Below, piece by piece: positions 33,181 to 49,278 of a stretch of DNA of 52,054 nt. The stretch is from a virus. Where the stretch lies: IMG/VR virus record IMGVR_UViG_3300046777_001343, positions 1 to 52,054 of that record; one strand, given 5' to 3'. The position numbers and the translations under genes are program-made. Numbering within the stretch: the stretch's first letter is position 1; every line of letters starts with the position of its first letter. Under the pieces are notes generated by a model. The model did not search any database, was not told where the DNA came from, and saw only the letters and a program-made list of their open reading frames with translations.

Positions 33181-33253
33181 TGCCCTATAACTCAGTTGGT
33201 AGAGTGCCGAACTGTTAATTCGGATGTCCCTGGATCGAGGCCAGGTGGGGCAG
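33181..33253 (+). tRNA. tRNA-Asn (anticodon GTT)
   Basis: The acceptor arms TGCCCTA and TGGGGCA pair over 7 bp with one G-U. The anticodon arm CCGAA/TTCGG encloses CTGTTAA, anticodon GTT. D and T arms (TGGATCGAGGCCA) are present. The discriminator is G at 33253; CCA is not encoded. Confidence 0.9.
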
Positions 33254-43447: not shown

Positions 43448-43852
43448 ATGGTAGTAGAAACAATGCTGGGTCTTTTAGATGACCCATTCTTTAATCGATT
43501 CAATCAAACAGTTAGAACAACACAAAACAACTATCCACCTTATAATTTAATTAAGGTAGGCCAAGAGTTGTTTGTTTTAGAGTTTGCTCTAGCAGGTTTT
43601 GACAAAGAAGAAGTGTCGATTACGGTAGAAAATAATCAACTAAAGGTCAGTGGCCAAAGATCAGAGGTTGAAGAGGACGATTCTGTAACCTATTTACACA
43701 AGGGGATTGCAGCAAGAAAGTTCTCAACAGTGTTTAACTTGCCAGAATATATGGAAGTTGAATCAGCACTATTTTCAAACGGTATATTAGAGGTAACTCT
43801 AGAAAAGCATATACCAGAAGAAAAGAAGCCAAAAACTATTGAAATTCAGTAG
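43448..43852 (+). CDS. Small heat-shock protein (Hsp20/IbpA-like)
   Basis: 134 residues. It shows the alpha-crystallin domain pattern: YPPYNLIKVGQELFVLEFALAGF, NNQLKVSGQR, YLHKGIAARKFSTVFNLPEY and the final NGILEVTL, plus the IbpA-like end PEEKKPKTIEIQ. It would keep unfolded proteins soluble, possibly aiding virion assembly. It has a strong own promoter. Phage Hsp20 genes are known in cyanophages and some others. Confidence 0.88.
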   Translation: MVVETMLGLLDDPFFNRFNQTVRTTQNNYPPYNLIKVGQELFVLEFALAGFDKEEVSITVENNQLKVSGQRSEVEEDDSVTYLHKGIAARKFSTVFNLPEYMEVESALFSNGILEVTLEKHIPEEKKPKTIEIQ

Positions 43853-43858
43853 TATAAT
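43853..43858 (+). promoter_or_regulatory. TATAAT box for the first structured RNA
   Basis: A perfect TATAAT directly after the Hsp20 stop. Transcription from it would begin near 43865. No clear -35. Confidence 0.45.
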
Positions 43859-43864
43859 AGTACA

Positions 43865-43984
43865 AATTCCGCTATAAGACTTTAAAAGGTTTTACAACGG
43901 ATGCTCCTTCGAGTGGAGAGTTGGCAGGAGTCGAATCTTCGTGGCTAATAGACCTGAGCAGTCGTCTATAAACTGCTCATTTCC
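43865..43984 (+). ncRNA. Probable structured non-coding RNA 1
   Basis: No ORF with a good start is seen. CTCC (43894-43897 area) can pair with GGAG after an intervening TTCGAGT. TGAGCAGT (43955-43962) pairs perfectly with ACTGCTCA (43972-43979), followed by TTTCC. ATAGAC (43948-43953) can also pair with GTCTAT (43964-43969), which interleaves with the first stem as an H-type pseudoknot or an alternative fold. Function unknown. Confidence 0.45.
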
Positions 43985-43986
43985 TA

Positions 43987-43995
43987 TGCTACAAT
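43987..43995 (+). promoter_or_regulatory. Extended -10 promoter for the second structured RNA
   Basis: TGC followed by TACAAT (43990-43995). Six nt later the terminal stem of RNA 2 begins. Confidence 0.5.
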
Positions 43996-44001
43996 ATAAC
44001 T

Positions 44002-44085
44002 GTCCCACACAGGACCTTAGTGATGGATTAGTTACCCATTGGATAGAGACCGTGGCGCAAGTCAGGTGAATTGCTTGTGTGGGAC
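44002..44085 (+). ncRNA. Probable structured non-coding RNA 2
   Basis: The 84-nt element is closed by a perfect 10-bp stem, GTCCCACACA (44002-44011) with TGTGTGGGAC (44076-44085). An extended -10 box ends 6 nt before the first base, so the stem would start at the transcript 5' end. Inside, ATGG/CCAT and GCAA/TTGC can form short stems. It is tRNA-sized but lacks a T-arm motif and anticodon arm, so it is not a tRNA. Confidence 0.5.
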
Positions 44086-44099
44086 CTAACATTTGGCGG

Positions 44100-44105
44100 T
44101 ATAAT
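44100..44105 (+). promoter_or_regulatory. TATAAT box, leaderless promoter for the HNH gene
   Basis: TATAAT ends 7 nt before ATG 44113. No Shine-Dalgarno sequence is present. Confidence 0.5.
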
Positions 44106-44112
44106 AATATCA

Positions 44113-44385
44113 ATGACTGACAAAGAGTTAGACCATTATAATAAGCAGCAGTATAAAAAAATGCTTGCCAAGATAAAAGAAGATTCTGGCTGTGTGGATT
44201 GTGGAATCAGTAATCATATTATCTTAGACTTTGACCACATAAGAGACAAAAAATACAATGTATCAAGGATGATCCATGATGGGTTTTCATGGAAGGCTAT
44301 CAAGAAAGAAATAGAAAAGTGTGAGGTGGTTTGTGCCAACTGCCATAGGATAAGAACCCATAATAGATTAAACGGCATGCTATAA
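44113..44385 (+). CDS. HNH endonuclease
   Basis: 90 residues from ATG 44113. CVDCG (~27) and LDFDHIRDKK (~39) followed by EIEKCEVVCANCHRIRT give the zinc-binding HNH nuclease: DH as first HN residues and the final CHR. It resembles free-standing small phage HNH proteins that act as homing or packaging-associated nicking enzymes. It directly follows the two structured RNAs. Confidence 0.8.
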   Translation: MTDKELDHYNKQQYKKMLAKIKEDSGCVDCGISNHIILDFDHIRDKKYNVSRMIHDGFSWKAIKKEIEKCEVVCANCHRIRTHNRLNGML

Positions 44386-45753: not shown

Positions 45754-45759
45754 ACTGTG

Positions 45760-45832
45760 TACCCCTGGCAGGAATCGAACCTGCGACGCTTGGCTTAGAA
45801 GTCCAACGTTCTGTCCACTGAACTACAGAGGC
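45760..45832 (-). tRNA. tRNA-Arg (anticodon TCT)
   Basis: Acceptor GCCTCTG pairs with CAGGGGT. The T arm GCAGG-TTCGATT-CCTGC is perfect and the anticodon loop is CTTCTAA. It reads AGA codons, which are frequent in the phage genes here. Confidence 0.9.
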
Positions 45833-45836
45833 TTGG

Positions 45837-45907
45837 AGCGAGTGACCAGAATCGAACTGGCACTATCTGCTTGGAAGGCAGAGGCACTACCATTATGCAA
45901 CACTCGC
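45837..45907 (-). tRNA. tRNA-Gly (anticodon TCC)
   Basis: Acceptor GCGAGTG/CACTCGC is perfect. The anticodon stem TCTGC/GCAGA encloses CTTCCAA. T arm CCAG-TTCGATT-CTGG. It reads GGA. Confidence 0.9.
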
Positions 45908-45911
45908 TTAG

Positions 45912-45985
45912 TACATCTGGAAGGACTTGAACCTTCGGCTCTCTGCATATAAGGCAGGTACTCTAACCAACTGAGTTACAGATGT
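45912..45985 (-). tRNA. tRNA-Ile (anticodon TAT)
   Basis: Acceptor ACATCTG/CAGATGT is perfect. The anticodon loop CTTATAT sits between CTGC and GCAG. T arm GAAGG-TTCAAGT-CCTTC. It reads ATA, a common codon in the window. Confidence 0.88.
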
Positions 45986-45989
45986 GTAG

Positions 45990-46063
45990 TACACCAGGTA
46001 GGACTTGAACCTACGATAACCGAATTATGAGTTCGGGGCCTTGACCAACTTGGCTACTGGTGC
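45990..46063 (-). tRNA. tRNA with anticodon CAT (Met or Ile2)
   Basis: Acceptor GCACCAG/CTGGTGT. The anticodon arm CCGAA/TTCGG encloses CTCATAA. T arm GTAGG-TTCAAGT-CCTAC. The CAT anticodon can be elongator Met, initiator Met or, after lysidine modification, Ile. The first acceptor pair is G-T, so identity cannot be settled by eye. Confidence 0.85.
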
Positions 46064-49270: not shown

Positions 49271-49278
49271 TAACTTTG

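Follow-up and report, generated by a model that had tools for sequence, protein, structure and literature searches.

In T-even phages, the mRNA of gene 32 has a pseudoknot in its 5′ leader, 67 nt ahead of the start codon, to which gp32 binds (PMC3014915). The STAXI motif (RF01728) occurs in tandem, as two or more repeats with UUCG loops (PMC2864571), and IscB, a protein with RuvC and HNH domains, has a guide-bearing RNA in its 5′ untranslated region (UTR; PMC9755519). Here we describe a gene-free stretch, positions 43853–44112 of a viral DNA of 52,054 nt (IMG/VR record IMGVR_UViG_3300046777_001343, analyzed whole and called the window), that is a double noncoding RNA (ncRNA) locus on the + strand. 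RNA 1 (el1) ends in an H-type pseudoknot with stems S1 and S2, and RNA 2 (el2) precedes a small HNH endonuclease gene. The gene 32 operator, STAXI and HEARO/IscB offer comparisons, yet for every one of them at least one of the defining features tested is missing here. The preliminary description of the locus had recognized neither RNA, and indeed no Rfam family fits either element; permissive thresholds returned only chance-level matches, and the open-access literature searched contained no fitting paper on these sequences or on a phage 3′ pseudoknot. Both RNAs are previously undescribed.

Like the gene 32 element, the pseudoknot of RNA 1 is a short phage H-type fold; in both, two stems stack coaxially, the loops are short and the site is an intergenic region of an mRNA. 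Unlike it, the window-type element follows stop codons or ends RNAs, keeps S2 fixed and accompanies many unrelated genes in diverse phages; it is not a 5′-leader element of a single-strand-binding protein gene. Both this element and STAXI are simple pseudoknots close to genes for DNA metabolism or mobile elements, but this one is mostly single (one copy in the window), differs in sequence and gives no Rfam match to RF01728. DUF2800 RNA (RF02960) is likewise an RNA of phages or prophages; the pseudoknot differs from it in sequence and fold and falls outside the RF02960 model. el2 resembles the HEARO/omega RNA of IscB in that both are conserved, structured and encoded directly 5′ of a gene for an HNH-domain protein. 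In contrast to IscB, that protein is a stand-alone 90-aa polypeptide with HNH matches only, el2 is apparently a separate 84-nt transcript, and Rfam searches gave no match to the HEARO model (RF02033).

The stretch almost certainly comprises two independent small RNA genes with the anatomy listed in Table 1. The preliminary description had proposed two structured RNAs that should covary in related phages. In both elements the stems given are exact, folding is more stable than in any dinucleotide shuffle (z = −2.95 and −3.41), and covariation is present, with compensatory changes in el1, in the pseudoknot and in helix P1 of el2. The relatives comprise more than 200 loci, collected with short DNA patterns and with the HNH protein as queries. 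Nearly all are metagenomic, and no cultured phage was found with these exact RNAs; counts from several of the scans are lower bounds. A chance structure or a protein-coding remnant, which short open reading frames overlapping the stretch might suggest, has a negligible probability and is refuted by compensatory changes far above those in shuffles and slid controls, and by non-triplet indels that leave no shared frame in the alignments. As the preliminary description proposed, each RNA has its own promoter-like −10 box, and the distance of the box to el2 (which starts 6 nt after TACAAT) is fixed in 86 of 87 distinct contexts, compared with 6% in shuffled sequence; neither promoter is listed by a generic sigma-70 scan, which requires a −35 box and therefore missed them. 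From these boxes we infer that RNA 1 and RNA 2 are transcribed as separate RNAs.

The predicted pseudoknot is a separate, widespread phage element found after stop codons or at the ends of small RNAs. Its interleaved stems in the window are ATAGAC (43948–43953) with GTCTAT (43964–43969) and TGAGCAGT (43955–43962) with ACTGCTCA (43972–43979), and the site ranks first in an exhaustive scan of both strands of the 52 kb for perfect-stem H-type pseudoknots (14 bp, against 12 bp at the next independent site). Since the pseudoknot does not vary among relatives of the window's el1 (type A), its proof must come from other contexts. There, the general form is S1-C-UGAGCA-N-S1′-nAAAAC-UGCUCA, with S1 free to vary with compensation. 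The pattern CTGAGCAT-gap-AAACTGCTCA matched at least 120 viral contigs, and in 198 of 210 distinct contexts S1 is paired at its first three positions, nearly always by Watson-Crick pairs, whereas shuffling the partners gives a mean of 40 and a maximum of 55. The preliminary description had left the choice between a pseudoknot and mutually exclusive folds; this covariation supports the pseudoknot, and the two stems are more than mere alternatives.

Because a set selected by the fixed S2 pattern would be biased, 80 loci were also gathered by a phage protein alone (PHROG 1221, unknown function) and the sequence after its stop codon was read. The exact motif is present in 61 of these loci, and 75 carry it with up to two substitutions per arm. 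They contain the compensated S2 variants UGAACA/UGUUCA, UAGGCA/UGCCUG and UGGACA/UGUCCA. In an alignment of 62 sequences, all four S1 pairs and three of the six S2 pairs show double changes, in 83 cells compared with 22 after shuffling (0 of 500 shuffles scored as high). The pseudoknot also occurs in cellular contigs, where about half of the pattern matches lack a proper S1 and look like chance; it was not found in the seven cultured phages examined, including three Stanwilliamsviridae.

We favor, with moderate confidence, a role of the pseudoknot as a transcript 3′-end module, either terminator or exonuclease barrier, because of its position behind stop codons, its presence at convergent junctions, its exchange with hairpins and its T-rich or tRNA tails. 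It lies mostly 8–16 nt downstream of the stop codon of a same-strand gene, convergent junctions included. The orientation that leaves it an upstream gene only, (+,−), outnumbers (−,+) by 13 to 7 in viral contigs and by 9 to 1 in cellular contigs. At each of the four distinct PHROG 1221 loci without the motif that were read (L536, L543, L544 and L587) a GC-rich hairpin takes its place, followed in L587 by a long T run. Where the pseudoknot does stand behind the PHROG 1221 gene, a T-rich tract follows it in 17 of 65 cases and a tRNA in 43. Thus placed, it could define or protect transcript 3′ ends, replacing a terminator hairpin where U residues follow and blocking 3′-to-5′ decay where the downstream end results from processing, such as at a neighboring tRNA. 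Intrinsic terminators and 3′-end stability hairpins share its location just after the stop codon, its U runs in some cases and its exchangeability with GC-rich hairpins; they differ from it in fold, in the conservation of S2 sequence and in the U-tract that it often lacks. Two of these features weigh against the favored role. Most pseudoknots, including the window's own in a scan of the window, have no U-tract behind them and are therefore probably not ordinary intrinsic terminators, and S2 is conserved in sequence beyond the needs of a mere roadblock, which suggests a specific binder.

The element could instead be a ligand- or protein-responsive switch of the next gene, in the manner of the T-even gene 32 leader pseudoknot, which belongs to the same topology class (a short L1 and two stems in a stack); the sequences of S2 and the A-rich L3 are conserved, and a ribosome-binding site often lies 20–40 nt downstream. 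We consider this rather unlikely, given that the pseudoknot is tied to the upstream stop codon even when the next gene is a tRNA or points the opposite way, closes RNA genes that have no downstream gene of their own, and is substituted by hairpins. A general 3′-end module after many phage genes was not foreseen by the preliminary description. As a compact, strongly covarying 3′-end element without an Rfam entry, present in phages of apparently many hosts and in bacterial contigs, the pseudoknot would alter the annotation of 3′ ends and ncRNAs in phages, and the question of a non-hairpin terminator or stabilizer is now directly testable.

el2 is tightly associated with the HNH gene. All 106 el2 loci with enough sequence to be informative carry HNH, 102 of them directly downstream and 4 with one gene between, which by its sequence we read as peroxidase-like; three contigs that seemed to contain el2 alone were rejected as exceptions when HNH was found one gene further on. 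A covariance model of 45 close el2 relatives gave a distant match among the pseudoknot loci and so led to a divergent copy in L252, which likewise stands in front of an HNH gene. Of 80 HNH relatives of that copy (64–100% identity), 79 have el2 just upstream; the copy in L635 seems to be partial. Within the clade, the pair is therefore obligate both ways. It also occurs away from HSP20, the gene that precedes the locus in the window, in several neighborhoods.

The likeliest reading of this linkage is a putative partnership, favored by the lack of empty sites, that is, el2 without HNH. The preliminary description, which had suggested possible partners of the HNH protein, was right about the association of el2 with the HNH gene. 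We put somewhat less than an even chance on el2 being a trans-acting RNA partner of the protein, which it would serve as guide, cofactor or inhibitor, with the conserved UAGUUAC loop as a potential contact. Three points speak against a partnership: obligate linkage could also stem from homing or hitch-hiking, HNH relatives of ~50% identity in Streptomyces phages have no el2-type RNA where examined, and the protein lacks both a RuvC and a guide-binding domain.

Among phage HNH genes, those of this size classically encode homing endonucleases. The main rival to partnership is intronless homing, in which a free-standing HNH homing endonuclease gene sits beside its own recognition site, in or next to the el2 gene, and el2 is a phage RNA with an unrelated job. 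This is a serious possibility, if well short of even. Homing is common biology for phage HNH genes, and the small protein is related to phage HNH endonucleases (PHROG 2255 and others); el2 would offer a highly conserved target (a 47-nt core is identical in 182 of 206 copies), the pair is found in several neighborhoods, and a gene has been inserted between its members in 4 contigs. Homing predicts some empty sites, yet there are 0 in the 106 informative loci.

el2 is also unlikely to be a 5′ leader of the HNH mRNA, serving as a cis-regulatory RNA or an autoregulatory protein-binding site, although nearly all loci place it 20–30 nt upstream of that gene's start. In 102 of 129 distinct contexts the HNH start has TATAAT, TATACT or TATAGT 6–10 nt in front of it, so the HNH mRNA would be leaderless; with the −10 box of el2 itself, this points to separate transcripts. 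el2 is free of any overlapping ribosome-binding site. We rejected the leader as improbable on the separate −10 box and on the whole gene that intervenes in 4 contigs.

Taken together, two RNA genes, a pseudoknot at the 3′ end and el2 as HNH partner make the best combined explanation, to which we give slightly better than even odds. A bolder version appears unlikely, in which a minimal two-component HNH nuclease (90-aa protein plus 84-nt RNA) unrelated to IscB/Cas9 has el2 as its RNA subunit, and a phage-wide, sequence-specific pseudoknot ends transcripts through the binding of a conserved host factor. The pair is an obligate association of an RNA with a nuclease gene, conserved over 64–100% protein identity, and raises the easily tested question of whether a lone HNH domain works with RNA.

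The structure of el2 is best supported in P1. The perfect 10-bp stem described 6 nt after an extended −10 box was confirmed and proved to be part of a longer helix. Among the 45 close relatives, 7 of its 12 pairs show double changes, and RNAalifold on 44 divergent sequences finds compensatory changes at all 11 modeled pairs. P2 and P3 are near-invariant among the close relatives, and that alignment therefore speaks neither for nor against their pairs. In the divergent alignment, the P2 loop nnUAGUUAC is invariant from the third base onward and its first two letters vary. The exact core had no match in 84,980 cellular species genomes, and none in plasmids; el2 was not found in three cultured Stanwilliamsviridae phages examined.

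The loop AUUAGUUAC might mimic the 790 loop AUUAGAUAC of host 16S ribosomal RNA (rRNA), which has the same GG/CC hairpin: 12 of the 13 letters of GGATTAGTTACCC match within a similarly shaped hairpin. Such mimicry is very unlikely. Equal scores against 16S are reached by 22% of shuffles, a match not beyond chance, and el2 is variable at loop positions 1 and 2 and fixed at the single differing base. Mimicry of, or antisense pairing with, 16S or 23S rRNA was rejected as no better than shuffles.

The type A el1 is known from 42 distinct relatives, in which helices P1, P1b, P2, P3 and P4 are paired in 99.7% of cells. Double changes occur at five pairs, and 0 of 500 shuffles reached the covariation score. 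P2 has the compensated variants UUCC/GGAA and CUCU/AGAG, and P3 has UUAGC/GCUAA and UUGGU/ACCAA; the covariation score and the double-change cells exceed all shuffles. el1 retains ~90–97% identity where HSP20 DNA is 65–70% identical, in many of the same loci; both elements are better kept than HSP20.

The tandem first described is no single unit: el1 and el2 are cassettes that also occur apart. In many phages other genes follow el1 and el2 lies ~0.5–1.2 kb downstream; in others el2 is directly 3′ of HSP20. Behind the stop codon of HSP20, exchangeable RNA cassettes (A, B, C, E or el2) occupy a common site downstream of a stop-abutting TATAAT, a layout that recurs in other phages. The same pseudoknot stands at the end of types A, B, C and E, and it stands bare in the HSP20 3′ UTR of two phages.

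Type E after HSP20 (L259, L333 and L350) consists of a hairpin (its loop is UUCG in L259 and L350), a GGCUAAUAGUUACGCC-like hairpin, CCUUAGGAU and the pseudoknot; it contains the el2 words UAGUUAC and CCUUAG in swapped order. The GUCGGGGGAGACAGCGAC hairpin is fused as a 5′ module directly ahead of el2 in L609, L612, L623, L633, L669 and L674 and stands ahead of the pseudoknot in L160, L277 and L322, an arrangement that we read as modular RNA shuffling.

Table 1. Features of the locus and of the related RNA cassettes (window positions)
Feature	Position	Strand	Remarks
HSP20 small heat-shock gene	43448–43852	+	Pfam PF00011, E 4.6e-21
−10 box of RNA 1, TATAAT	43853–43858	+	abuts HSP20 stop codon TAG 43850–43852
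RNA 1 (el1, type A)	43865–43979 (approx.)	+	start inferred from −10 box
RNA 1 P1, UCCG/CGGA	43868–43871 with 43898–43901	+	
RNA 1 P1b, UAAGACUU/AGGUUUUA	within 43865–43979	+	
RNA 1 P2, CUCC/GGAG		+	
RNA 1 P3, UUGGC/GCUAA		+	
RNA 1 P4, GGAG/CUUC		+	followed by 3′ pseudoknot
H-type pseudoknot	43949–43979	+	last 31 nt of RNA 1
Pseudoknot S1, UAGAC/GUCUA	43949–43953 with 43964–43968	+	
Pseudoknot L1, C	43954	+	
Pseudoknot L3, UAA		+	
Pseudoknot S2, UGAGCAGU/ACUGCUCA	43955–43962 with 43972–43979	+	
Extended −10 box of RNA 2, TGCTACAAT	43987–43995	+	TACAAT 43990–43995, TGC in front
RNA 2 (el2)	44002–44085	+	84 nt
el2 P1, GTCCCACACAGG/CTTGTGTGGGAC	44002–44013 with 44074–44085	+	12 pairs including G-U, 10-bp core perfect
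el2 P2	44021–44026 with 44036–44041	+	loop AUUAGUUAC 44027–44035
el2 P3	44049–44056 with 44061–44067	+	GCAA loop 44057–44060
−10 box of HNH gene, TATAAT	44100–44105	+	7 nt before ATG
Small HNH endonuclease gene	44113–44385	+	90 aa; PHROG 2255 HNH endonuclease, E 1.6e-23
Cassette type A			the window's el1
Cassette type B			ends UUCCG...CGGA as type A, different interior
Cassette type C			GUCGGGGGAGACAGCGAC hairpin
Cassette type E			includes UAGUUAC hairpin

The terminase of the window is closest, at ~54%, to those of Streptomyces phages of the Stanwilliamsviridae, and the virus is therefore an actinophage relative. ARAGORN and the Rfam tRNA model find six transfer RNA (tRNA) genes elsewhere in the window and none in the locus, whose fold is not a cloverleaf, so that the tRNA mimics considered in the preliminary description were dropped. 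Four of the genes (Arg, Gly, Ile and Met) are clustered at 45759–46063 on the minus strand; the others are Asn at 33181 and Glu at 49278.

Further observations concern the pseudoknot elsewhere. It is repeated in L413 (two copies 48 nt apart) and L290 (three within ~140 nt), and lies near or immediately upstream of DUF2800 RNA in the clostridial contigs L416, L393 and L451. In some bacterial contigs (L384, L390 and L437) the CCUGAGCA of the pseudoknot contains the UGA stop of a short Cys-containing reading frame, such as MKKYAVPRIAHCSEGCRPQS*. A 98-kb viral contig bearing the pseudoknot also encodes a permuted transfer-messenger RNA (RF04321; L265:11778–12019). Finally, directly after the endolysin gene, 126 Streptomyces phages encode a conserved RNA that is structured, mostly lacks annotation and has a GC-rich terminator as well as a −10-like box, for example at L682:355–470 (Streptomyces phage Spilled 22156–22271; relatives L688–L695). 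It matches no Rfam family at gathering score, and its CUUAGGAUGG...AUUACC resembles CUUAG..GAUGG..UAGUUACC of el2.
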